Source of the DNA: Nitrosospira multiformis
Lineage (GTDB): Bacteria > Pseudomonadota > Gammaproteobacteria > Burkholderiales > Nitrosomonadaceae
DNA: 45,418 nt
Assembly (NCBI GenBank): GCA_017306155.1
Contig: JAFKJB010000025.1
Location: 1 to 45,418, forward strand
Direction: 5' to 3'
The position numbers were made by a program, and so were the translations under genes. The notes beneath the pieces are model-generated. The model had not been told where the DNA came from. It did not search any database and saw only the letters and a list, made by a program, of their open reading frames with translations. Each line of letters begins with the position of its first letter. Position 1 is the stretch's first letter. Positions 24,534 to 37,051 of the stretch are shown one piece after another.

Positions 24534-27500
24534 CTAGGATTTTGCCGAGTTGAAGTTGCCCAGGAGAATCAGGTCGCCCGGCACGGCGCAACTGCTGAAC
24601 GAAATGTAGTTGTTTGATGGGAACAGCAGGTTCTTCAGCGCGAATACCGAAATGGAATCGAACTGGATGGACAGCTTTTCCGCAATCTGCGTCGGCACCT
24701 GGCTCTGTATCTGCTGGTTGACCTGCGCGGCCAGATCGTCTGAGCCGCTAGGGCCGCCTCCGGAAAGATGCCCACTGACAATGACCCCCTGACCCGAAGT
24801 CTTGATCTCGATGGTCTGGTTGCGCCCGCTTCCACCCACACTCAGCGGCAACGCAGCTTTCGCCTCGATTGTCACGTCCGTTGCCAGCTTGGAATCGCTG
24901 CAGCGGGGGTCGCAATTCCACAGGCAGGGATAGTAAGACGTGCAGGCACGCTGGTTGTATTGCAGGGATTGCCCGCGCGACCCGCTGTAATACATCTGCC
25001 CGTTTGGCTGCACGATAATGGTAGTGTCCGCCAGTGACCAGGAGACGTCGTTTCCGCCCGGAATCGAGTAGGTATACTCGGTGATCGATCCACTGCCGTG
25101 ACCGCTGCTGGTGGACGAGGTGTGGTTGAGTTTGCTCAGGTTCACGCTGCCAGTGACGCTGGCGCTGGTGAACTTGGCCGACCATGCCTTGGCCGAGCTT
25201 CCGGGATCCACCCCTTGCAGCGCCCAGCCATTGTTTCTCAAACTTTGCGGAAGCACATCCTTGAATATCAGCGCCGAGCGGACCATCATGCTGTTACTCT
25301 GTCCCTGCGGAATCGGCTCGGGGATATTGTTCAGGAAAGCCTGGGAGTAATTCAGTGCTGCCCGTCCCCCCGTCATGATGAAGAGCTGCAGCATCTCGTT
25401 ATTGCCCGGTGTCTGAAGCGGCTTGAAGATAAAATCGCTTGGCTTGAGTGACTCCAGCGTGGGAATAGCGGTCAGATCGAGCTGGTTGATCAGGTAGACC
25501 ACGGGATTATTGACGAAATATTCCTTCACTGCCTTGTTGAATTCCACCTTGGTTGCGTCGCTCAGATCGAGGTTACTGATCGAGAACGTTCCCTCCTTCA
25601 TGTCGAGCTGAACTCTCAAGACATTGTGATTGCTGTTGTCAATCTTGACCGTTCCGGCCACCTTGGCCAGCTGGATCACCGCCGTCAAGGTTTCACCGCC
25701 GATAGATTGGGGAATATCGCACTGTTCAGGAAGTGATCCCACTTTCGAACAACGCTGCACAGAGCCGTTCAAAACCTCCATTTTCAACATCGCGGTATTG
25801 TTGTTATTGATGCTGAAATCTAGAAGAGGGTAGCCGTATTCGATGGTAAAGCGGTTGATCACGGTCACATCGCCCGGATATTTCTCCGAGGTGTTGACAA
25901 CGATTCTGTTTTTGTAGGCCGTATCCTTTTTCAAGGCTTCGTACTGATCCTTCAGCGCTCTGTTGATTTCTTCCAGATTCATGTTGAACACCACATCCCA
26001 GCCGTTGGTGCAGCTTCCCTGCGCGTACATCTGCTTCAGCAATGTGTCTGCAGAGGGGAGAGCTGGAGCCGCAGCGAGCAGCGGGCGGAAACCTTCAGCC
26101 GCCGGGGCCGCAAGCACCGGGGGCAAGCCTGATGCAAGCAGGCGGCTCAATGCGCGGCGCTGCATGATTTTCTGCGCATCCGCAATTCTTGCTTCCAGCA
26201 CGAAGGACAACCGGATCGTCAAACTATCGCCATTGAACCGAAGGCCCTTGTTCGTGCTCGTGTTCGGCAGCGAAATCTCCCAGATGGAAAAGGGCGTCAC
26301 CCGGCTTACGCCTTCAGACCAGGATTGCCCCCCGTCGGAAAACCTGGGCGAGTTGTCGGGGGCGTTATAGTTGTATATGCGCTCGCGCCACGGCGTGCGG
26401 AATGTCAGCGGGTCACGATGCAGGTTGCGGTCGTGAAAGGGGGTTCCGCCATAGGCCAGGCGCAGCAGATAAGTACCGCTTTCGGTCGACCTGACACCTT
26501 CCACGGAAGCAACCACGGAAACGATCCTGGCATTGACGTATTGGTAGAACGCCGGCGCATCCAGGAAGATGGTAGTGCGAAAGATATTGCCGCCAGTCAA
26601 TTCCTCTGGCTTCACTCCTTCGATAACGTATTCGATCGGCCTGGTTCGTGTGACCTGATACTGCGCAAGCAGGGATTTGGCCTCCAGCGTGGCGGCTTTC
26701 TGCTGAACCACCGCGGCGCTGAATTTCAGCAGGCTGTACGCCAGCACGGGCGTGGCGGGCTGGAGGTTGGCATATTGCAGCGCCAGGTCCTGCATCAGGA
26801 ATGCCTTGGCAAGAATCGTGAGCATCTGGTTCTGGATGAATGTCAGGTGCCCGGTCAACGCCACCAGATCGATTGCGGAACGGTCCAGGTCCTTCACCTG
26901 GGCAGGATGCAGCTTCTGCCGCAGTTCCTCCAGCCGTTTTGCCTGACGGCTGTTGATCTCTTTCTGCTTCTGGTTGGTATAGATATCCCGTTGCAGGACG
27001 TGCAAGGCGGACTCAGCGCCGGTTACGGCCTTGCCGCGGAGTACCATCGTGGCAAAAACCGCTTGCAGGCTTGCCTTCTCCGGCTTGATGTCCGGGCCCG
27101 ATGCCATGATCTGGTTGAACTGGATCGACATTTCGTCCCAGGAAAGCATCGACGGATTGCCGAACTGCGCATCATCCAGATCATCCAGCGCGTGCTGGGC
27201 GTTTTCCAGCCCCTTGGCCCCGGTGCTCGCACCGGTATAGAGCTTGGACAGGGCGTTGAGCACATTCAGCGTCTTCTGGATGCGCTGCACGGTGAGGCCA
27301 AGGTCTTTCACTGCGGAGATGGAAGATGCTGGGACGGCGATGGAAGTGCCAAGGCTGAACAGATTGGTGGCCACTTCCAGGCCGAACTTGATCGCTTCCA
27401 TGGTTTGCCACTGCTGCACCGCGGATTTATATTTCTGTACCGCAAGGTTCACTTCTCCCTGGGCTTCGAACAGTGAGGCGCGCAAGTCGTTGATCTTGTT

Positions 27501-29564
27501 CTGCTGCTGGTCGGCCTCGGCCTTGCTCTGGGCAATCAGCGAATCGTAGAATCCTTCCAGGTCTCTCTGCTGCTCGGCATTCGCCTTGATCACATCGCCG
27601 ACCAGCTCGCCCGACTTGATGATGTTCTCATTGAGTGTCCTGCCGACATCGATCACCCGTTCTTCCAGGCGCCGGGCGGCCATGCGCTGTTCGTTTTGCG
27701 CCACCTGCAGCTGTATCCTGTCCAGATAGCCGAGTATGCTCTGCACATACTGCTCGTAGTCTGTGTAAGGCAGGATCGGAACGAAGCTGCCATATTTCGG
27801 ATTGATGGCGTAGCTGGCAAGGTCCATCGCACGGATACGCAACGCAAGCAGTTCTTCGCTGCCGCTTGCACCTGATAGAAATTCCGCCAGCCAGTTCAGA
27901 TAATCGCGCACGAACTGCTGGAGACAACCATTGGCTTTGCCCGATTGGTCGCTGATGACCGCTTCGGCAAACGTCATGGAAAACTGAAGGCTGTTCGCAA
28001 GCAAGGGTACCGCCTCAGCGGAAGGCACGATGCGCACGTCATCCACGACAAAAGGCACTGCCTCCGGACCCTCGCCTTCCAGGTCGAACCTGAGCCCATC
28101 CACGATGACACTGTAACGCGAGCCGGAACTGTTGCTGATCGCCAGGGCACCGAGAAACTCGTCACATCCCAGCTGCAGCGAGTCGAATGCTTCATCCACC
28201 AGGGATATCGCCCTGGGTTGGCCTTGCACTCGCATATCCAGAACCTGCCCGAACAGCCGCACTCTTTTTCCGGGCACCTCGATGGTTTTATTGCTGCTCA
28301 CGGACAATACATTGGCAAGAAGGATGAAATCCTGCACCTCTTCGGCCGCCACAAGCTGCATGTCTGCGAGATCCAGACGTGCCTTGTACGCATTGACAGT
28401 GGGAGTGGCAATGAATGACACGATCCCTGCGGTATCCTGCGGTAGCATGCGGACAAAATCGCGCTGGTCGTAAATGGAAAAATTCGGCTGTATCGTCGTA
28501 CGGTACTTCTGCGCCATCGCGCCTTTGAAGATGCGCTGCCAGATCAGCCCGCGCTTCTGTTCGATCATCACACTCAAGCTGGCAAGACGCACACCTATGA
28601 CTGTCTGCTCGTCGAATTCCTGCTGGAGATCGACAAGCGACAGCGCGGAATTGACGTTGAACAGCGAGAACACGCTATTCTTGCTTGACCACAGCCCATC
28701 CAGCCAATCGCCCCGACCCAGGGTCGAATTGAAGACGGCGGAATTGCTCAGGCAAATGACATTTCCATACTCTTCCACATAGCCGAAGATGCCGGCTGCG
28801 CGGTCAGTCGTAAACTGGACAAAATTTTGCGAGCCAGGACCCGACAGCGGATTGCTGCCATCCGCATAAGCCGACTTTATCCGCGCAAACTGTTCCGGCG
28901 GATAGGCAAACACCTGAAGGATCGTATCGCCCAACTCCACGCCGGAAACATAATGGGTGCCAAATTCGCGGAAAGAATCGAGGACCTTGTTGGCATCCTC
29001 CTTTGTCAGCTGATCGCCGTAATCCTGCAGCCGGCTGCGCCCGGCATGCCCCAATCTGGTTGAAGCCGAAGTGAAGGCGGGGGTGAGGCCATACTCGGGA
29101 TCGGGCTGGCGGGGACGCGCGTGTACCAGAATGCCGCCCACCTCCGACGCATGGTTGTCCGCCCCATCCACCCTTACCAGTTTGACCAGCGCATAGCGTG
29201 ATCCCGGCTTCGTCAAATCCACCCCTATGGTTTTTGAAAGTATTTCCAGGGAAGCCCGGCTGCCAACAGCACCCGCGAGCAAGGCGCCCGGCCCAAAGGC
29301 AGGCGCATCGATGTCGCTGGAAGGCTTGACGACCTCATACGGAATCAACTCGTCCAGTAACTCCAGGGCCGTTTCATGCAGCGTAATCACAGGGTAAGAC
29401 CAGGAGCCCCGATGCTCGACCGGCTCCACGGGCTTTAAATCCATCGCCTGGTGTTCGGCGGAATAAAGGATGTTGAGCAATCCCTTCTGCGGTTGCCAGT
29501 TCGGGTTAAGCCCGCGAACGAGATTGGTGGAAAAACCGATGCTGAAATCCGGATTATTTTTCAT
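24534..29564 (-). CDS. Giant MACPF-like / helical / TULIP(P47)-like protein
   Basis: A 1676-residue protein without signal peptide. Residues about 60-345 contain a MACPF/CDC-type pore-forming signature, FGTHYVSGVELGD (201-213), though the usual closing Gly-Gly is absent. Residues about 600-970 are long amphipathic helices with coiled-coil character (Gln/Glu/Lys-rich 604-720 and 845-890). They enclose a hydrophobic, alanine/valine-rich stretch (about 728-760) that could be a hairpin. Residues 980-1125 are beta-rich and resemble receptor- or subunit-binding modules of insecticidal toxins. From about 1185 (NGWDVVFNMNLEEINRAL) to the end (NLLFPSNNYISF, VPGDLILLGNF) it resembles TULIP lipid-binding proteins of the clostridial P47/OrfX group. 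It lies alone downstream of hipBA. A secreted or released toxin is possible; domain calls rest on motif resemblance. Confidence 0.72.
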   Translation of the reverse strand: MKNNPDFSIGFSTNLVRGLNPNWQPQKGLLNILYSAEHQAMDLKPVEPVEHRGSWSYPVITLHETALELLDELIPYEVVKPSSDIDAPAFGPGALLAGAVGSRASLEILSKTIGVDLTKPGSRYALVKLVRVDGADNHASEVGGILVHARPRQPDPEYGLTPAFTSASTRLGHAGRSRLQDYGDQLTKEDANKVLDSFREFGTHYVSGVELGDTILQVFAYPPEQFARIKSAYADGSNPLSGPGSQNFVQFTTDRAAGIFGYVEEYGNVICLSNSAVFNSTLGRGDWLDGLWSSKNSVFSLFNVNSALSLVDLQQEFDEQTVIGVRLASLSVMIEQKRGLIWQRIFKGAMAQKYRTTIQPNFSIYDQRDFVRMLPQDTAGIVSFIATPTVNAYKARLDLADMQLVAAEEVQDFILLANVLSVSSNKTIEVPGKRVRLFGQVLDMRVQGQPRAISLVDEAFDSLQLGCDEFLGALAISNSSGSRYSVIVDGLRFDLEGEGPEAVPFVVDDVRIVPSAEAVPLLANSLQFSMTFAEAVISDQSGKANGCLQQFVRDYLNWLAEFLSGASGSEELLALRIRAMDLASYAINPKYGSFVPILPYTDYEQYVQSILGYLDRIQLQVAQNEQRMAARRLEERVIDVGRTLNENIIKSGELVGDVIKANAEQQRDLEGFYDSLIAQSKAEADQQQNKINDLRASLFEAQGEVNLAVQKYKSAVQQWQTMEAIKFGLEVATNLFSLGTSIAVPASSISAVKDLGLTVQRIQKTLNVLNALSKLYTGASTGAKGLENAQHALDDLDDAQFGNPSMLSWDEMSIQFNQIMASGPDIKPEKASLQAVFATMVLRGKAVTGAESALHVLQRDIYTNQKQKEINSRQAKRLEELRQKLHPAQVKDLDRSAIDLVALTGHLTFIQNQMLTILAKAFLMQDLALQYANLQPATPVLAYSLLKFSAAVVQQKAATLEAKSLLAQYQVTRTRPIEYVIEGVKPEELTGGNIFRTTIFLDAPAFYQYVNARIVSVVASVEGVRSTESGTYLLRLAYGGTPFHDRNLHRDPLTFRTPWRERIYNYNAPDNSPRFSDGGQSWSEGVSRVTPFSIWEISLPNTSTNKGLRFNGDSLTIRLSFVLEARIADAQKIMQRRALSRLLASGLPPVLAAPAAEGFRPLLAAAPALPSADTLLKQMYAQGSCTNGWDVVFNMNLEEINRALKDQYEALKKDTAYKNRIVVNTSEKYPGDVTVINRFTIEYGYPLLDFSINNNNTAMLKMEVLNGSVQRCSKVGSLPEQCDIPQSIGGETLTAVIQLAKVAGTVKIDNSNHNVLRVQLDMKEGTFSISNLDLSDATKVEFNKAVKEYFVNNPVVYLINQLDLTAIPTLESLKPSDFIFKPLQTPGNNEMLQLFIMTGGRAALNYSQAFLNNIPEPIPQGQSNSMMVRSALIFKDVLPQSLRNNGWALQGVDPGSSAKAWSAKFTSASVTGSVNLSKLNHTSSTSSGHGSGSITEYTYSIPGGNDVSWSLADTTIIVQPNGQMYYSGSRGQSLQYNQRACTSYYPCLWNCDPRCSDSKLATDVTIEAKAALPLSVGGSGRNQTIEIKTSGQGVIVSGHLSGGGPSGSDDLAAQVNQQIQSQVPTQIAEKLSIQFDSISVFALKNLLFPSNNYISFSSCAVPGDLILLGNFNSAKS

Positions 29565-29710: not shown

Positions 29711-30988
29711 CTATTTGAGGTTTTGCCGATTTGGCTCCGTCAGTCGCCGTACGGTCAATGCCGAACGCTGTTCAATCATCCTGATTATGCTCTCCACCAG
29801 CGGATGGCCAGAGAAGCCGCTATCAGGTGCCGATTGGAGTTGACGGGCAGTCTTGGGCAGCGTTCTTGCCAGCTCCAGGATGCGTTTTCGAGCTTGCGCC
29901 TTGGCCAGGCCAGCTGCCTCCGCAAACTGATCCCAGTGCCGCGCCTGTACCTCGCTGAACTTGTATTTGCTGCCGAGCTTCATCGCCATTTTGGGAGTGA
30001 GGTTTGGGTACACCGCGGTCGAGAGCGTATCGTAGAGCGGAGCCAATATCGGCATCTTGCCCGTATAGAGCAAAGAGAAGTTCTTGGCGTGCGCGTCGTG
30101 ATTGCCAATAAGGGTATTGAATATCACATAATCGAACAGCCGCAGCACCTGCGGCGCACTGGGCCGTGGGGCGCGACGCACCAGGTCAAAGCACTGGGCA
30201 AGGCCGGGGCCGCCCTCGCTCTGGTACTTCATCTCCGGCACCACGCCCAGCGCCTGGCAGAAATCTTCCTGATGCAACCGCTGGATGTAGCCTTGTGGAT
30301 TGATTAGTCGATCATAGCGTTCAACCAATAGAAACCGGAGCCCGCCAAGGGAGCGTATCTGCGAACGTGCTGCCCTGAGTCTCACCACTTCGGCCAATGC
30401 CAGGCAAAACCCCTCGTTGGTCACGCTGTCTTCCAGCGCGGAAATGAGGGGCTTGAGGATGTGCGTGCTTGCCGTGCCATTCCTGGGGAGGCCAATCCTG
30501 TTCCCGTCGACAGTCACCGGGAGCTTGTCCTGCGCGCCTGCCAGCGAAAGACGCAGACCATCCTTTCCGGCCAGCATGGGGCGGCGGGGCAGTTCCTCAA
30601 GAATGGCGACAATATCCCTATCGTTCAACCATTCCACATCATCGCCCGAACTTTGCTGGAGCAGCGGCTGGCCTGGCTCGAGAAAGGTAACAGCGCCAGC
30701 GCACTCACCCCCGATATGGTCCAGAAGGGCAAAATCGTTCTGCGCTGAAACATGGAACTGGCGTGCGATCATGCGGCGCAGTCGGCCTTCCGGAAGCAGT
30801 CCGGCGAAAAACGGTCGCGCAGCGTGGTCGTCAAAGGACTCTGCTCGAAGTGGCAACGAATGGGACAGCGGGACCGCGTCCGTTCGCACCAGCCACTCCG
30901 CCGCATACCGGAACATGAGGCGCCCGGTGATCAGCGTCAAAGTGCCTACGCGATTGGCAAACAGCCAGACTTCGAGTTCATGTGTCAT
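29711..30988 (-). CDS. hipA: HipA-type serine/threonine kinase toxin
   Basis: A 425-residue HipA-family kinase. In E. coli, HipA phosphorylates glutamyl-tRNA synthetase, stalls translation and induces persistence. It has the N-terminal couple-like domain, the phosphate-loop region LSLAGAQDKLPV with Ser148 at the position of the autophosphorylated serine, the catalytic GNHDAHAKNFSLL (Asp298, Asn303) and the metal-binding APLYDTLS (Asp320). All key residues are present, so it appears active. It overlaps hipB by 11 bases. The C-terminal tail after about residue 400 is Arg-rich. Confidence 0.92.
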   Translation of the reverse strand: MTHELEVWLFANRVGTLTLITGRLMFRYAAEWLVRTDAVPLSHSLPLRAESFDDHAARPFFAGLLPEGRLRRMIARQFHVSAQNDFALLDHIGGECAGAVTFLEPGQPLLQQSSGDDVEWLNDRDIVAILEELPRRPMLAGKDGLRLSLAGAQDKLPVTVDGNRIGLPRNGTASTHILKPLISALEDSVTNEGFCLALAEVVRLRAARSQIRSLGGLRFLLVERYDRLINPQGYIQRLHQEDFCQALGVVPEMKYQSEGGPGLAQCFDLVRRAPRPSAPQVLRLFDYVIFNTLIGNHDAHAKNFSLLYTGKMPILAPLYDTLSTAVYPNLTPKMAMKLGSKYKFSEVQARHWDQFAEAAGLAKAQARKRILELARTLPKTARQLQSAPDSGFSGHPLVESIIRMIEQRSALTVRRLTEPNRQNLK

Positions 30989-31226
30989 GCCCGCTGCCCT
31001 CGCTGGTTGCTGTCGGCAGTCCGCTCAGATTGAATTCCCCACCCAGCACGTTGATGACACGAAGCACATTTTCCAGCCGCACGGTCGGCTTGCCGGCCTC
31101 AAGTTCCACAATGAAGCGCAAGCCTACCCCCGCGGCCAGCGCCAGTTGAGACTGTGTCAATCCCAAGTGCTTGCGAACGGCCCGCAGAGCCGCGCCAAGT
31201 TGTTGTGATGTATGAATCGTGATCAT
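30978..31226 (-). CDS. hipB: HipB-type antitoxin and repressor
   Basis: An 82-residue XRE-type protein with a helix-turn-helix (about residues 8-62: LGAALRAVRKHLGLTQSQLALAAGVGLRFIVELEAGKPTVRLENVLRVI) and a short Ser/Gly-rich tail. HipB proteins neutralise HipA and repress the operon cooperatively. Its ATG lies in the right arm of the first operator, so autoregulation would cover both promoter and start codon. Confidence 0.93.
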   Translation of the reverse strand: MITIHTSQQLGAALRAVRKHLGLTQSQLALAAGVGLRFIVELEAGKPTVRLENVLRVINVLGGEFNLSGLPTATSEGSGHDT

Positions 31227-31296: not shown

Positions 31297-31399
31297 CATG
31301 GGAAGCTAAAGCGTCTGGGGCAGCAATATTTCGACCAAAAATGTGAAGCGGTGGACAGTTAAAAGTTGTGTCTTGTTCCCGATTTGCATATGGACAAGC

Positions 31400-31950
31400 G
31401 TTGAGCTTCACCAGTTGTTCCCGCCCGCGATTCAAAAGCTTGCTGTCTGTGGGATAGGCAATAGCTTTTCTCCTGGACGGTGCTGTCTACGATGACCGCT
31501 GCACGGATAGTCTGGGCCAGTAACCATTCCATACCGCCTGCTCCAATCTGCTGTCGCCAACGAATAAGTGAACCCGGATCAATGGGTGGATTGTGCTGGA
31601 ACCAGGTTTCACAGAACAATTGCCAGTAGGGATTTTCCACCCAGCTCCATACCCCCTCTTCATCCGATAGCGCGAAGGTGCCTTGCAGGTCCACGGCCGG
31701 AAGGGAAAAAGCCTGCCCACTCATGCTCGAACACTGACCATTCGATATGCTGCACAAGTTGCGCCAAGGGGTGTTTTGGGTTGACCAACTCATCCAGTCG
31801 TTGGCGAAACAGGTCATTGCTCTTTGGTGTGCCTGGCTTTGGTCCCACTACAGCCTCCTGAATTTGCAAGGAAATTGCAATAATTTTACCAGAAACAGGC
31901 AAGTTCAACGCGTAAACTCAGAATAACATTCAATAAAATCAGTAAGTTAT
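31400..31950 (-). mobile_element. Decayed IS5-like element remnant
   Basis: It comprises the transposase remnant and a leader of about 100 bases (31849-31950). Bases 31825-31950 match window positions 1-127 with few differences, ending at AGTAAGTTAT in both. The left boundary near 31400 is where transposase similarity stops. The right end lies within about five bases of the stop codon of the first island gene. Confidence 0.75.
31405..31848 (-). pseudogene. IS5-family transposase, frameshifted and truncated
   Basis: The N-terminal half of an IS5-type transposase can be read across three frames. VVGPKPGTPKSNDLFRQRLD starts it, and EWAGFFPSGRG follows in the first frame. A gap of roughly ten residues and a frame change come before LSDEEGVWSWVENPYWQLFC and SLIRWRQQIGAGGMEWLLAQ. 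A further frame change comes before NRGREQLVKL. The C-terminal half with most of the DDE catalytic residues is missing. It is inactive. Confidence 0.85.
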
Positions 31951-31954
31951 GATA

Positions 31955-32587
31955 TCATTCAGGACGACTAGCTGATTGAAGCGCTTCCAACACTTGCTCA
32001 ACAATTAATGTCCTTGTGCCTTCATTATGAGCAAAATCATTGCTGGCACTGTCTATTAATAGAACCTTTTGAGTTTCAGGAAGAGTTGAAATAAGAGATG
32101 TCAGACTGTCATTAAGCGAGGCCAGATAATTGACCGTAATGCTCTTTTCAATCTCTCTGCCTCGGGAGGCGATACGTTGAAGCTGAATCTCTGGGGAACA
32201 TTGAAGAAAAATAAGCAAAGCGGGAGGCACAAGATGACTGGAGGCTTCCTTATAAACCTTGTGAAACGTATCAAGACGACTACCACTTAATGTTACATTA
32301 GCATACGCACAATCGAGGGCTAGAGAGAAATCACAGGCGAAATTTTGTTGTAAGCTTGAACCTATTTTGATCTGATGATAATGCTGCAATAGGAAAGTAA
32401 TTTCTGTTTCAAACGCGGTGTTGACTGGATCTATATAGAAAGCTTCCCAGAAGGGATTGCTAGAAAAATTCTCCAAGAAAATTTGTATTTCACGCGAACC
32501 TAGTAGATTCGCAAGAGTTGTTTTCCCTGAAGCAATGCTTCCGCAGATCTCAATCCTCACAGCATTGTTGTGAAATGGAGTTATCAT
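31955..32587 (-). CDS. Deoxynucleoside-kinase-like P-loop protein
   Basis: A 210-residue protein of the deoxynucleoside kinase (dNK/dGK) fold. It has the Walker A motif GSIASGKTT (residues 16-24), a LEN segment with Glu39 at the position of the catalytic base, NPFWEAFYIDP, the helix EITFLLQHYHQIK, and a Lid-like RIASRGREIEKSI. The usual D-R-S motif is replaced by CDFSLALDCAYA, seen in a divergent subgroup. Family members phosphorylate deoxynucleosides with ATP. It is the last gene of the four-gene island operon and overlaps the preceding gene by 38 bases. Its substrate cannot be assigned. Confidence 0.8.
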   Translation of the reverse strand: MITPFHNNAVRIEICGSIASGKTTLANLLGSREIQIFLENFSSNPFWEAFYIDPVNTAFETEITFLLQHYHQIKIGSSLQQNFACDFSLALDCAYANVTLSGSRLDTFHKVYKEASSHLVPPALLIFLQCSPEIQLQRIASRGREIEKSITVNYLASLNDSLTSLISTLPETQKVLLIDSASNDFAHNEGTRTLIVEQVLEALQSASRPE

Positions 32588-33620
32588 ATTTCAGCTTGCC
32601 TTGAGAAAGCGCATTTACAACTGACGTTAAGCGATTTTCCTGATAGGGTTGATCCAAATGCGTCCACTTTTCGCGTGTTTCGATTTTCACTTCCAATAGG
32701 GAAATTTTTTCCTTCAGATCGAGAATATCCACTCTCTGTTCTTCAATTGTCCTTTCAAGAATCACTTCTCTAGCCGATGACTCTCGAACATATTGGTTAG
32801 CATCTTGAACCAATCCTATAATAGGGACTACCAAGCCTATTACAGTAAGAAATAAAGCTCCAACTCCCCCAAAAGTTATTTGGCGAACCCTCGTCATCGC
32901 TTTGCTCGAAGCACTTATCGCTTGTTCAATTTCTAAAGGGATGGAACTACGCGCTGGCTTACCTTCTAAACCCACTTTATTTAGATACTTCTGGGGCGTT
33001 AAATATCGATTATTACCGGGAAAGTGCTTATATCCAGTTAGATCGCTATTATCGATCCAATGAAGATGGGGAGAAATTTTTGTAAACTCTACCCAGATAA
33101 GGCCTTCCCCGCCAATTATTGTATATGGTTCGGATGTTAAATTATGCAGAGGTATGAATAGACGTCCAGCAAACCCAGGATCAACCAATGGTCCAGTTCC
33201 AAGAAGCAGTCCTCGATGAACATGTTTAATGCGCAGATTGAATCTCAGAGCAATGTAATCGGGCAGGCGAAATGTTGTCTTTGGTGAGACGAACACTATG
33301 GAATTTTTGTCAATTGGGAATGGCTCGTCAAGTTCAATCTTTTTTTTTGTAAAATCCTTTTTATCTCCATCTTTCCAATAATAAACCTCACCATCAAAAT
33401 CGATCTCATACGAAGCAGATTTAAGCTTCCCTTCTTTTGCCAGATTAAAAGGATGAACCATTCCGGTTACTCTGACATATTCAGAAATGTCCCTTGAGTT
33501 CAGTAGTGCGGCAGGAATTTTGGTAAACGGGTCTGTGTGTTCATATTGCTGAAAATGGATATCCGCTTCTTCGTCAGACTCTGGAAAGGTGATTTTAGCT
33601 AGATCAGTGTTCAATGCCAT
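32550..33620 (-). CDS. Membrane-anchored dCTP-deaminase-like protein, catalytic Glu replaced
   Basis: A 356-residue protein. Residues about 30-190 resemble the dCTP deaminase/dUTPase fold: KSASYEIDFDGEVYYW corresponds to the SASYDLRLG region and GPLVDPGFAGRLFIPLHNLTS to the VDPGFxGRxTLEL region. In active deaminases the Glu of that last motif is the catalytic base; here it is Pro157, so deamination is unlikely. A transmembrane helix (249-271, FGGVGALFLTVIGLVVPIIGLV) and a coiled coil (about 278-318) follow. A nucleotide sensor tethered to the membrane fits these features; that is inference. It overlaps both neighbours. Confidence 0.78.
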   Translation of the reverse strand: MALNTDLAKITFPESDEEADIHFQQYEHTDPFTKIPAALLNSRDISEYVRVTGMVHPFNLAKEGKLKSASYEIDFDGEVYYWKDGDKKDFTKKKIELDEPFPIDKNSIVFVSPKTTFRLPDYIALRFNLRIKHVHRGLLLGTGPLVDPGFAGRLFIPLHNLTSEPYTIIGGEGLIWVEFTKISPHLHWIDNSDLTGYKHFPGNNRYLTPQKYLNKVGLEGKPARSSIPLEIEQAISASSKAMTRVRQITFGGVGALFLTVIGLVVPIIGLVQDANQYVRESSAREVILERTIEEQRVDILDLKEKISLLEVKIETREKWTHLDQPYQENRLTSVVNALSQGKLKYDNSISQQCCED

Positions 33621-34660
33621 TTCTTCGCCATCTTAATTTCATTACCCTGCCGATTTATCAACAAATCCTGACCAAAACCATAATAGTCAACGGCCCTACC
33701 GAGATTAGCCTCAACTTCTTGAACAAATTGGGTAGTAGAATTGGTTAGCGATTTTAAAACTGCGCAATTTCTATCCACGTAATCAAGATGATTTAATACT
33801 ATTCGGGATGGATTGTTTGCAGCAATCGCGTGACGAACTATTTTTACATCGAATCGCGCTATCCGCCTAACGGTGCGAGTTACGGAAGTAAATTCGATGA
33901 ACTGCGATTCACTACCAGCTTCGCTGGTGACTTTATTCCAATCTATTTCGTCTGATAATGGGCCAGAATTACCGGAAACACGTATTGGAAATGTCCTTAA
34001 TACCAGTACAACGTCATCTACATCCCTCGGTCCCAACCCTACTTCCGATAAAAATCCTGCTGCCGTAGTATCACGGCTTGTCACAAATGGATAATGTGGT
34101 GAGTGCAACAAGGAAAGACCATACCCCTGCGTTCCCTCGATAATCACCCGCTCTCTCTTGTCAAGCTTGGAGCGCATAAAGGAAATTGATGGTTGTACAT
34201 ATGGCGCAAGGCGGTCATCATTTTTAGCTAACTTCAGGGAACCGTCACGTTGAATTCTTTTTATAACGGCTGCTCCAGTGCCACTAAGTGTTGAACCAAT
34301 TTCTTCCCGAAGGCGGCTACCTTGCTCCTCTGCGATTTCAGCATCCGTAATAACGGCGGCATTGGGATCAATAATGAGGCGGCTTTCACTTAATCCCGCC
34401 ACTTTGATTTCAGCAAGTAGTATGTCAGGGTTGATGTAACTACCAGCGCCAAGAATACAAGTAACATCAGGCAAAATAGCAGCGGTAGGAAGATGCTTGA
34501 AAATTATCGACTCCCCTGAGGGCGAAATTACGGTGTGGCCGGAGTTGGGACCGCCGATTCGTATTGCTACACTAGCCCCCATTTCCTTCGCCAATGCATG
34601 CGAAACCTTCCCCTTGCCCTCCGAGCCGTACTGCCCGCCAACAATGATGGTTATTGGCAT
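33611..34660 (-). CDS. PurZ-like adenylosuccinate synthetase homologue (Asp to Ser)
   Basis: A 349-residue member of the PurA/PurZ family, shorter than housekeeping PurA (about 430). The GTP loop is GGQYGSEGKGKV: Ser13 stands where PurA has its invariant catalytic Asp (GDEGKGK). Phage PurZ enzymes, which convert dGMP to N6-succinyl-2-amino-dAMP in the 2-aminoadenine (Z) pathway, carry Ser or Gly there. Other family elements are kept: GGPNSGHT with His42, GSTLSGTG, EGTQGYGLSLLHSPHYPFVTSRDTT in part, GLGPRDVDDV, VTRTVRRIARFD and LNHLDYVD. It overlaps both neighbours by ten bases. dGMP specificity is inferred from Ser13 and length; no activity is shown. Confidence 0.82.
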   Translation of the reverse strand: MPITIIVGGQYGSEGKGKVSHALAKEMGASVAIRIGGPNSGHTVISPSGESIIFKHLPTAAILPDVTCILGAGSYINPDILLAEIKVAGLSESRLIIDPNAAVITDAEIAEEQGSRLREEIGSTLSGTGAAVIKRIQRDGSLKLAKNDDRLAPYVQPSISFMRSKLDKRERVIIEGTQGYGLSLLHSPHYPFVTSRDTTAAGFLSEVGLGPRDVDDVVLVLRTFPIRVSGNSGPLSDEIDWNKVTSEAGSESQFIEFTSVTRTVRRIARFDVKIVRHAIAANNPSRIVLNHLDYVDRNCAVLKSLTNSTTQFVQEVEANLGRAVDYYGFGQDLLINRQGNEIKMAKKWH

Positions 34661-36741
34661 ACCTTTTCTACTTTAAAAATAGGCAATGCTTCTATTTCCA
34701 TTTGAAGGGTGCTTAATTCACCTTCATTCCGGACTACCTTGTCTGCCAGCTCCGCCAGCTCATTTACACGAGCTTCAACATTATGCGTATTGGCTACTTC
34801 AAATGAGGTTGAGGTCCCTTCTCTCTGATAAAATCTTTGTTTTCGGATATCAGGTGAAGCCTGGAGATGGATGTGATAAAAAGCAGGGCCAAATGTTTCT
34901 ATTAATAAAGCTCTGTCTCCCGGAAATCTGATTCCATCAACTACAACGTTCCCTTCCTTCGGAAATCTCTTCGCTAGTTGGTGCCCCAGCCACCGTTGCC
35001 CTGGATCATGATGTAATTCTTCGCCCAACTCCTGCAGAGTCTGCCGGGTAACAGGTATTCCTCTTTCCTTAAGTACAGCTTCCACGACCTGACTAAAACG
35101 CCCGTAGCAATAACCTTTTTCTATTAGAAACCGTGCTACGGTTGTCTTTCCCGCGGCTAAAGGACCACTTAACCCTATCACCGAACGTTGCCTCCAACTC
35201 GTCGGGTCAACATGGAGATCAGGTATTATTAATGCCTCTTCGGGATCAATTTCATTGCCTAATCTTTCAAACATCCCGCTCCAGAAAAAAACACCTACAA
35301 CAGCAGAGGTGATGGCATCCAACTCGTCGTGGGTTATTCGGTCTTGGCAGAAGTTGCCCTCGATGCCAAATTCAGCCAATCCTTCTCGCAAAAACTCTAA
35401 CCCGGCTCTCTTTCGCGGAATATTCATGATGTCCTGGGCTGCTCCCGGATAACTTTCAATAACCGGAATTCCCATTTTCCGAAAACGCTGTGCAAGGCGT
35501 ATTCCTCGGGCAGTTAACCGACGCATGCTTGGAATCAGGGCGGGATAAACATTTACACCCCTTTTCTTCAATATCCGCTCGCAATAGCGCATTATTCCGT
35601 ATGTTTGACGCCCTGGATCATCATCGTCAACTGAAACTCTTCCAAGAGGCAATGACAAAGGGGAATCGATTGATACTAGTTCAGGCTTTACCTTAAGCGT
35701 CGCATCAACTAAATCATCATCTGAGGCCAGAGCGTTTGTAATCGCATGACTGCCATCCAAAAAGCACCAGCCGGATAGCTTAGATTCCGAACCAGATAAG
35801 TCGATTCCAACTACACGCAGTTTTTGGCGTGCATTTATGTCTATTAAGTCGTTTATCCGAATAAAAGGACAAGTTTTTTCTCTGTATGGAGTTATTCGGA
35901 TCGCACCTGAAGAGTACTCGGTCTCAGTTTTATACCAGACAATCTTGCTACCAAGATCAGAAAATATCTCCAGCATTCCTTCCATCTTTGGCAGACCATT
36001 CTGCTGTACCAACTGCCGCGCTGTTTTATCGAAGATAAACTTCATGCCTTCAATGTCAGCATGGTTATATTCGATAAGCAGCTTTAATGCCTCAGGGTCC
36101 CCTCTGCGATACCTATGCCACAAAATGGGCGCCGCCTCTCCCGCAATATCTTGAATTCCTGCGTCCCTGACTAATCCTAACTGCTTTTCGATGGATTTTT
36201 GCCCACCAGAAAATCCGTGACGTTTGGAAAAAAAACGAAGATCAACGTGAGCTTGCGGTATATCGAGATGAGGAAATTCTTGCTTTAGAAACGGCAAATC
36301 GAATAATGTACCGTTGAATGTAACTATCGCCTTCGCCTTTTGTATTGCAGACACTAGAGGAGTTTCGTCTCCTCCCTTTATATATACTCCATACTGTCCC
36401 CCAATAGACCAGCCAACTATCGTAATGTAGTCATAGAATCTGCTTAGCCCAGTTGTTTCGATGTCAATAAAAAGTGTATCCGGGAGAAACGCTAATGCGA
36501 TTCGATAGTGTTCTTGGCGAGGGAGCCGCTGGCAAAAGAATTCAACATCCTTTTCTTGAAATGCTCGTCGAGATTGAGCAAGGATTGATTGTATTCCCCA
36601 ATTACACCGATCTTCGAAGAGTAAAGCTTGAGGGGCTATAGCAGCTTCCAGCTCATCCCAGGATGCTATACCCATCCTCCACAGCTCCCGCTCTTTTTTG
36701 GAACTGATTCCTTTGATGTGCTGAAAAGTAAAAGGCAACAT
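34651..36741 (-). CDS. YprB-type exonuclease / DUF429 / P-loop kinase fusion
   Basis: A 696-residue three-part protein. Residues 1-35 form a helix-hairpin-helix-like start (GISSKKERELWRMGIASWDEL). Residues about 88-235 are a YprB-type RNase H-like exonuclease with FIDIETTG (Asp93, Glu95), TFNGTLFDLP (Asp148), HVDLRFF (Asp167) and Y-x3-D (Tyr225, Asp229). Residues about 308-495 are DUF429, a predicted RNase H-fold nuclease, with VGIDLSG, SIDSPLSLP and ITHDELDAITSA. Residues about 518-690 are a P-loop kinase (GLSGPLAAGKTTVA) resembling dephospho-CoA kinase or phage dNMP kinases. It is the first gene of the island operon and stops ten bases inside the PurZ-like gene. Confidence 0.83.
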   Translation of the reverse strand: MLPFTFQHIKGISSKKERELWRMGIASWDELEAAIAPQALLFEDRCNWGIQSILAQSRRAFQEKDVEFFCQRLPRQEHYRIALAFLPDTLFIDIETTGLSRFYDYITIVGWSIGGQYGVYIKGGDETPLVSAIQKAKAIVTFNGTLFDLPFLKQEFPHLDIPQAHVDLRFFSKRHGFSGGQKSIEKQLGLVRDAGIQDIAGEAAPILWHRYRRGDPEALKLLIEYNHADIEGMKFIFDKTARQLVQQNGLPKMEGMLEIFSDLGSKIVWYKTETEYSSGAIRITPYREKTCPFIRINDLIDINARQKLRVVGIDLSGSESKLSGWCFLDGSHAITNALASDDDLVDATLKVKPELVSIDSPLSLPLGRVSVDDDDPGRQTYGIMRYCERILKKRGVNVYPALIPSMRRLTARGIRLAQRFRKMGIPVIESYPGAAQDIMNIPRKRAGLEFLREGLAEFGIEGNFCQDRITHDELDAITSAVVGVFFWSGMFERLGNEIDPEEALIIPDLHVDPTSWRQRSVIGLSGPLAAGKTTVARFLIEKGYCYGRFSQVVEAVLKERGIPVTRQTLQELGEELHHDPGQRWLGHQLAKRFPKEGNVVVDGIRFPGDRALLIETFGPAFYHIHLQASPDIRKQRFYQREGTSTSFEVANTHNVEARVNELAELADKVVRNEGELSTLQMEIEALPIFKVEKVCQ

Positions 36742-36767
36742 AATATCTCTGAGCGATTTGCTGAGTA

Positions 36768-36806
36768 ATTATGCCAGTGATGCTTTAAAAGAATGCAAAC
36801 GTTGCA
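36768..36806 (-). promoter_or_regulatory. Weak promoter with palindrome ahead of the island operon
   Basis: On the minus strand, -35 TTGCAT (36798-36793) and -10 CATAAT (36773-36768) are 19 bases apart, a long spacer. The palindrome TGCAA-ACG-TTGCA (36794-36806) covers the -35 box and could be an operator. The remaining bases between 36742 and 36936 contain a 70-codon plus-strand frame without a ribosome binding site, which I do not call a gene. Confidence 0.35.
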
Positions 36807-36936
36807 ATATGAATCCTTCAGGAGTCAACGAACAAGATCGTATTTTCAATTCCATCTCTGCTCAAGGACACCATTTCAAAATTACTGGAATATTTCTGCA
36901 AGGATTAACAGCAGCGAGGCCGTTCCGCAAAAAGAA

Positions 36937-36968
36937 AAAGCTTGACGGTTTTTACCCTGTCAAGCTTT
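36937..36968 (-). terminator. Intrinsic terminator of tRNA-Phe
   Basis: AAAGCTTGAC (36937-36946) and GTCAAGCTTT (36959-36968) form a perfect 10-base stem. On the minus strand it starts seven bases after the CCA end of the tRNA and is followed by a T-rich tract (TTTCTTTTT). Confidence 0.85.
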
Positions 36969-36975
36969 GATTTAT

Positions 36976-37051
<76 letters not shown>

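Follow-up and report, generated by a model that had tools for sequence, protein, structure and literature searches.

PurZ is known as a phage enzyme for Z-DNA. The Kongming defence operon encodes KomA adenosine-deaminase-type and SIR2-type proteins, and a further defence, AvcD, is built on a dCTP deaminase. Z-genome phages combine the synthetase either with DatZ and MazZ or, as PurZ0, with DutZ and DmtZ, and phage PurZ is distinguished from PurA by a Ser-for-Asp change (PMC12884076, PMC8342488). An insertion behind a conserved Val is described for S-2L PurZ (PMC8342488). Kongming uses deoxyinosine triphosphate (dITP), a modified deoxynucleoside triphosphate (dNTP) that is made from deoxynucleoside monophosphates (dNMPs) with kinases, as an immune signal (PMC12948488). 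Here, we describe an operon from Nitrosospira multiformis (assembly GCA_017306155.1, contig JAFKJB010000025.1, positions 1 to 45,418; this 45,418-nucleotide stretch is hereafter the window) that places a PurZ-like synthetase in a cellular setting and recalls each of these systems in part.

The operon consists of four minus-strand open reading frames (ORFs) at 31955-36741, genes A to D, with successive overlaps of 10, 10 and 38 bases, exactly as a first-pass annotation of the window had placed them (Table 1). Gene A encodes an exonuclease-DUF429-kinase protein, gene B the PurZ-like synthetase, gene C a membrane protein with a dCTP-deaminase (DCD) fold and gene D a deoxynucleoside kinase (dNK); matches to RNase_H_2/YprB, DUF429 (weak), P-loop, PurZ-like, DCD plus membrane helix and dNK families agree with the products assigned there. 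What is the biological function of a PurZ-like enzyme in such an operon? The sequence makes a defence role in general likely. There is an even chance that the operon is a mobile system against phages whose signal is a base-modified deoxynucleotide, whereby the PurZ product would activate a membrane receptor. That it represents a new class of immune signalling, in which a PurZ-made succino- or 2-amino-adenine deoxynucleotide is read by a membrane-anchored dead dCTP deaminase, is a more tentative proposal and falls somewhat short of even.

If this scheme holds, the locus would, by analogy, follow the Kongming principle with another chemistry and other parts: a modified deoxynucleotide would be made from dNMPs during infection, raised to the triphosphate by kinases and passed as a signal to an effector (PMC12948488). 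However, Pfam and NCBIfam give the four window proteins no deaminase-type or SIR2 match except the DCD fold, and the window system differs further in putative PurZ amination, operon-encoded nuclease and kinase-like domains and a putative DCD-fold receptor with a membrane helix. The dCTP-deaminase defence described by the PADLOC dCTPase model shares the DCD fold with gene C and a P-loop match with gene A, but these two parts lie on separate proteins in the window, and gene C has Pro at the catalytic Glu position as well as a membrane helix. Clover, a dGTPase with a nucleotidyltransferase, likewise joins the nucleotide pool and nucleotide signals in defence (PMC12265719); no dGTPase match was found among the four window proteins, and CloB was not searched. 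Z-genome phages share Ser in place of Asp13 and the insertion behind the conserved Val, and PurZ0 phages additionally have a dUTPase-superfamily partner beside the synthetase (PMC12884076), whereas the partners in the window system are an exonuclease-kinase and a membrane protein. No known system tested has this gene set or receptor, and the operon was not recognised among the matches listed from open-access literature, a scope outside which subscription literature lies.

The operon recurs far beyond Nitrosospira. A synthetase search across 84,980 species genomes returned 441 pattern matches, of which tblastn confirmed 411 as relatives, and the best 80 loci, those nearest to the window synthetase, were examined, so that the co-occurrence rates are valid for close relatives. 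Gene counts come from greedy gene calling, in which genes that are split or frameshifted are lost; DCD proteins below 250 amino acids (aa), PurZ below 290 aa and two of five extra host PurA loci (pattern miss) were left out. The 79 PurZ rows and the window carry 19 phylum labels, with four rows unlabelled and two archaeal labels (Lokiarchaeota and Halobacteria records); the labels are taken from record titles, and many of these records are bins. Profiles built from the window proteins match PurZ in 78 of the 80 loci, DCD in 74, DUF429 in 71, the kinase in 68, YprB in 61 and dNK in 26. A PurZ gene model is readable in 78 loci, and the two others were dropped from the spacing counts. Within 6 kb of PurZ, the exonuclease-DUF429-kinase protein is found in 69 of 78 loci and the DCD-fold membrane protein in 72 of 78, mostly abutting; the co-occurrence elsewhere on which the first-pass annotation had staked its proposal is thus found. 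The DUF429 gene stands immediately upstream of PurZ in 58/78 loci (median gap -2.5 bp) and the DCD gene immediately downstream in 57/78 (median gap -4 bp). Because this order recurs in tens of unrelated genomes, the operon is beyond chance, and the earlier view of a single operon stands, with spacing recurring as well. The earlier four-gene unit needs revision: dNK is a separate gene in only 24/80 loci, and gene D is optional and outside the operon core. A reciprocal search with the DCD protein of L046 hit 3 of 296 family genomes, including its own, with PurZ and an exonuclease-kinase gene nearby in all three. For comparison, 80 of 233 viral relatives were kept from an alignment-based scan, which succeeded where a scan with a single synthetase sequence found no relative; the window DCD protein (tblastn, E 1e-4) matches 75/80 cellular and 1/80 viral loci.

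Gene B matches Adenylsucc_synt (1.1e-47), the PHROG family 2-aminooxy adenylosuccinate synthetase (3.3e-72) and NCBIfam PurZ (3.4e-71). Its score against the curated PurZ model is 239.9 bits, under the cut-off of 300, and we therefore call it PurZ-like; the best NCBIfam model, archaeal adenylosuccinate synthetase, also stays under its cut-off (273.6 against 368 bits). The active-site motif reads GGQYGSEGKGKV, with Ser where PurA has the catalytic Asp13. This Ser is found in 78 of 79 cellular PurZ rows, the remaining row lying outside the search pattern, and the alignment column has Ser in 79 of 80 rows and a gap in one. Furthermore, among nine aligned sequences, S-2L not included, the window, phiVC8 and Ghobes enzymes share a GNSG/GTSG insertion behind the conserved Val that host PurA and L007 lack. 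Of the 50 genomes tested, chosen from the 80 with preference for longer contigs, 47 encode a separate full-length PurA (interrupted by one internal stop in two of them), one has a 46-residue piece, and in two no PurA was seen. The window genome has its own PurA on contig C16, which supports the earlier statement that the synthetase is not a housekeeping copy, and a PurA duplicate is rejected on the grounds of the PurZ-type active site and the separately encoded PurA. Gene B is, by sequence, PurZ-type rather than PurA, and use of deoxyguanosine monophosphate (dGMP) is predicted. A tree of 170 rows places the cellular enzymes together with 14 viral-contig rows, apart from phiVC8 PurZ and Ghobes PurZ0, with a support of 88, below the 95 mark.

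Gene A joins a nuclease to a kinase. The exonuclease residues D93, E95, D148, D167, Y225 and D229 and the DUF429-region residues D314, D359, E429, D472 and D475 are invariant in 53 full-length proteins including that of the window, and the PADLOC dCTPase model matches the P-loop region across residues 519-675 (6.8e-7). PHP domains can act as exonucleases, as in DNA polymerase X. In eight loci, a PHP domain takes the place of the DEDD exonuclease; the metal-binding motif pattern is present in 8/8, and HHH_8 and PHP (Pfam) are found in all three proteins scanned. These loci belong to Lachnospiraceae, Clostridia, Prevotella, Bacteroidales, Fibrobacteria, Spirochaetaceae and Verrucomicrobia records and one unplaced bacterium. 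Since two unrelated nuclease-type folds occupy one slot, nuclease action is probably required.

Gene C resembles a nucleotide receptor more than a deaminase, as far as its sequence indicates. It matches DCD in Pfam (3.8e-6), its predicted model has the dCTP-deaminase/dUTPase fold, and its long C-terminal helix is a coiled coil by appearance; PADLOC gives no match. The membrane helix is predicted in 69 of 73 DCD-family proteins. At the position of the catalytic Glu (E138 in Escherichia coli), 72 of the 73 have Pro and one has Leu, and the Pro of gene C aligns over the Glu of 2qxx. Where 8y1w has its SSxxR motif, the aligned stretch in the family is RFNLxIxHVxRGL, and SSxxR occurs anywhere in just 7 of 79 DCD-family matches. 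An active deaminase is rejected for gene C because of the Glu-to-Pro change, and the nucleotide-depleting active dCTP deaminase suggested in the first-pass annotation is not supported, in view of the same residue. The receptor slot can also be filled differently: in four loci, a 594-870 aa protein directly follows PurZ (the shortest truncated at a contig end), no DCD gene was seen on the piece examined, and both scanned proteins contain the Pfam AAA domain of AAA+ proteins. Rhizobium-type plasmids encode a kinase-PurZ fusion with a DUF7002 gene behind it and an HD/YfbR-like gene (weak Pfam match, under cut-off) in the vicinity, and in one such locus, L006, a DCD-like protein with a membrane segment lies upstream of the fusion. 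This pattern of module exchange resembles, by analogy, that of synthase-effector signalling systems.

The sequence data also identify the operon as a mobile, horizontally spread conserved unit. Its PurZ gene is found in 1 of 23 searched genus genomes and, in a class sample of 369 genomes (E 1e-30), in the window genome alone. The AT-rich island recognised earlier is real, with a G+C content by 1-kb step of 0.40-0.47 across 32001-37000 against 0.49-0.60 in the remaining steps. The ribF-tRNA-Phe region was compared in eight congeners. The 1676-aa gene that lies past the operon in the window is present in four of these regions, with no match within the stretch examined in L241, L242, L243 and L245. 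The spacing between this gene and ribF varies, from about 7.8 kb in the window to 8.4 kb (L238), 6.6 kb (L239), 2.7 kb (L244) and 1.8 kb (L240); as read from ORFs, L238 has an integrase-like ORF after the tRNA and L240 a VapBC-like pair in the gap. Relatives lie on conjugative plasmids, as PurZ-DCD in Sinorhizobium and as the kinase-PurZ fusion in Rhizobium and Agrobacterium. For the defence context, 130 neighbour proteins (of 231 eligible; core genes and proteins <150 or >1300 aa excluded) from 20 systems were compared with 130 controls (of 285) from 20 same-contig regions >50 kb away. Among the 25 PADLOC families listed for neighbours, most are restriction-modification families, and 3-4 of the 130 proteins match Type I methyltransferase models; the control matches are, judged by name, of broad ATPase/regulator type, with 4/130 on the commonest family. 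The proximity of relatives to defence genes, which the first-pass annotation had proposed to check, is borne out in this respect. The S. medicae copy has BilD (1.6e-170) at a distance of about 0.5 kb, and L083 has a Type I restriction enzyme close by. Relatives thus occupy defence-rich, variable locations, and the window site is variable too.

Taken together with this spread and mobile setting, the PurZ site, exonuclease residues, predicted deaminase fold, membrane helix, Glu loss and module swaps suggest a scheme whose trigger, substrate, product, ligand identity and membrane effect, like the defence role itself, we infer. During infection, the exonuclease-DUF429-kinase protein would process DNA and yield deoxynucleotides including dGMP, and the optional dNK would salvage nucleosides. 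PurZ would then condense dGMP and aspartate to succino-2-amino-dAMP, which host PurB could convert to 2-amino-dAMP, and the kinase domain of gene A would, with host kinases, produce the triphosphate. The Glu-less membrane protein may bind this modified nucleotide, and its membrane and long-helix part may act on the membrane, leading to growth arrest or death of the infected cell.

Several observations weigh against this scheme. At E 1e-12, neighbours match 148 PADLOC families and controls 10, but these numbers count families, not proteins, the top single-family counts are 5 and 4, and the ratio inflates the effect because one restriction-modification protein matches many families. HipA is the sole defence-type neighbour in the window with a notable match (PADLOC candidate PDC-M03A, 3.3e-8; eight window proteins scanned). 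No attachment repeat was found at tRNA-Phe and no second copy of the tRNA 3' end in the window, so a variable site is shown and tRNA-site integration is not. No DUF429 gene was seen in 9/80 loci (L075 and L080 of these on short pieces), and an HD/YfbR-like gene (weak Pfam match, under cut-off) stands beside PurZ in L045 and L050, which have no DUF429, and in the plasmid locus L004; the exonuclease step is therefore not universal. The Thermococcus dUTPase 8y1w has Met at the aligned Glu position, so Glu loss does not prove that gene C is inactive, and because the motif-3 Asp is retained in 71 of 73 DCD-family proteins, hydrolysis by gene C could still occur. DutZ, the dUTPase-fold partner in PurZ0 phages, is described as an enzyme (PMC12884076), and in 10 viral loci the DCD profile picks up short genes of dUTPase fold or a similar kind close to PurZ.

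The retained Asp, the HD/YfbR-like genes and the viral DCD matches would all suit nucleotide depletion, in which the nuclease and PurZ would drain dGMP/dGTP and the DCD-fold protein would be an active dNTP hydrolase like DutZ, a dATP/dGTP hydrolase whose gene is present in all 98 PurZ0 phages studied (PMC12884076). The sequence RFNLxIxHVxRGL at the SSxxR place and Pro for the deaminase Glu argue against such activity. Soluble pool enzymes do not usually carry a membrane helix, so that of gene C is odd under this explanation, which we consider quite unlikely. Alternatively, dZTP or its succino form could be an antimetabolite weapon that enters or blocks phage DNA synthesis, with PurZ fed by DNA breakdown in infection and the membrane protein merely an anchor or regulator. 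The PurZ-type active site alongside the operon's own kinases fits this idea, and in combination phage PurZ, MazZ and DatZ are toxic to E. coli and introduce Z into its DNA (PMC8342488); yet it leaves unexplained why the most constant partner is a Glu-less deaminase fold with a membrane helix (72/78; helix 69/73) and why an AAA+ protein can take its slot, and DatZ matches none of the 80 loci. It is unlikely.

Another alternative is production of Z-DNA or other modified DNA that shields a mobile element from restriction, for which the homology of gene B to the PurZ of Z-phages and the conjugative plasmids speak. In the examined pieces of the 80 cellular loci (tblastn, E 1e-4), phiVC8 DatZ, the Ghobes dUTPase-annotated proteins and the Acinetobacter-phage dATP/dGTP pyrophosphohydrolase have no match (MazZ proper was not queried), and DpoZ has one (25% identity); among the 80 viral loci, DpoZ matches 21-23, the two Ghobes proteins 23 and 48, and DatZ and the pyrophosphohydrolase 0. 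The zeros for the latter two discriminate little because they are 0 in viral loci too. By the genes searched in these 80 cellular loci, where DatZ and DutZ go unmatched and DpoZ has a single weak match, a Z-DNA biosynthesis cluster is rejected, and DNA shielding is highly improbable. Of the hypotheses raised in the first-pass annotation, a modified nucleotide as signal fits best, and Z-DNA production is not supported. Nucleotide salvage or DNA repair with no defence role would account for catalytic parts that all act on nucleic acid or nucleotides, and YprB homologues have been linked to repair-related helicases (PMC12458937); nevertheless, presence in 1/23 congeners, a varying tRNA site, restriction-modification surroundings and 19 phylum labels are atypical of housekeeping and make it improbable.

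A cellular role for PurZ is indicated by up to 411 genome-borne relatives, with one operon shared by most of the 80 studied. The PurZ group in a 2026 phage study comprises 147 phage and four archaeal sequences and no bacterial ones; its sampling was capped at two PurA homologues for each prokaryotic phylum (PMC12884076). If immune signalling by a PurZ product is correct, it would add guanine-nucleotide amination chemistry and a dCTP deaminase/dUTPase receptor fold to nucleotide-based immunity, and phage Z-DNA synthesis and this immunity would use one synthetase family for opposite purposes. Did phage PurZ then originate from, or counter, such systems? Three viral contigs of 105, 312 and 250 kb (L093:6001-7035, L096:6001-7038 and L097:6001-7014) encode cellular-clade PurZ that is 61, 51 and 44% identical to that of the window, with no other operon gene seen on the examined piece; counter-defence and own Z synthesis are both possible roles.

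Table 1. Features of the operon and its borders in the window
Feature	Position	Strand	Description
Gene A	34651..36741	-	696 aa; putative HHH-like N-terminus (by eye), YprB DEDD exonuclease, DUF429 region, P-loop kinase-like
YprB / RNase_H_2 exonuclease domain	36025..36474	-	residues 90-239; PF13482 7e-28
DUF429 region	35221..35811	-	about residues 311-507; PF04250 E 0.012 scanned alone, under Pfam cut-off
P-loop kinase domain	34672..35187	-	about residues 519-690; PF13238 (AAA_18) 5.3e-8; PHROG deoxynucleoside monophosphate kinase 5.7e-8
Gene B	33611..34660	-	349 aa; PurZ-like synthetase
Ser13 codon	34622..34624	-	replaces catalytic Asp of PurA
Gene C	32550..33620	-	356 aa; dCTP-deaminase-fold domain, predicted transmembrane helix, long C-terminal helix
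dCTP-deaminase/dUTPase-fold domain	33078..33509	-	residues 38-181; Pro157 at catalytic Glu
Predicted transmembrane segment	32808..32864	-	residues 253-271; mean Kyte-Doolittle 2.67
Gene D	31955..32587	-	210 aa; deoxynucleoside-kinase family, optional; PF01712 dNK 7.7e-25
tRNA-Phe(GAA)	36976..37051	-	operon strand too; borders site with cargo differing between congeners
IS5-family transposase fragment	31359..31817	-	152 aa; opposite operon edge; NF033578 1.3e-20 (under cut-off), PF05598 2.8e-7

A HipBA pair lies past the IS5 fragment, and HipA-type genes are found about 3 kb from three PurZ genes (window 29711-31226, L074:2891-4153 and L083:6779-8041, the last two by similarity to those of the window). 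The 1676-aa protein (window 24534-29564) has a weak MACPF match (E 0.019, under cut-off) and shares about 95% identity with its counterparts in two congeners and 82% with those in two more. Direct repeats in the window amount to just three short imperfect families, and a promoter and terminator scan yielded about as much as shuffled sequence.

Minor variants were seen among the relatives. Three Bradyrhizobium-family systems (L046, L253, L254) have two distinct membrane DCD genes each, as though the receptor were paired. The kinase-PurZ fusion with DUF7002 occurs in L005, L006, L008 and L009 (Rhizobium/Agrobacterium/Methylobacterium), and its DUF7002 protein is ADP-ribosyltransferase-like by eye only. 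A 250-aa family that starts with MQxRYxGDVGDF and contains the motif DPDNG lies near PurZ in 15 loci (e.g. L070:11042-11785); it has no match in Pfam (one member scanned) or PADLOC (two scanned), and its model (predicted local distance difference test score 92.5, 14 sequences) gave no Foldseek match in the PDB at E <=0.001, a miss that does not imply a new fold. On a Rhizobium plasmid, L007:7375-15715 carries annotated folE, adenylosuccinate synthetase, purB, queE, IMP dehydrogenase and queC genes, a set that resembles a 7-deazapurine pathway whose synthetase is of PurA type (Asp). On a Dyadobacter plasmid (L011:3432-5594), a DUF429 protein that stands alone shares 55% identity with the DUF429 region of the window, matches the PADLOC candidate PDC-S44 (2.2e-8) and adjoins an annotated diadenylate cyclase.

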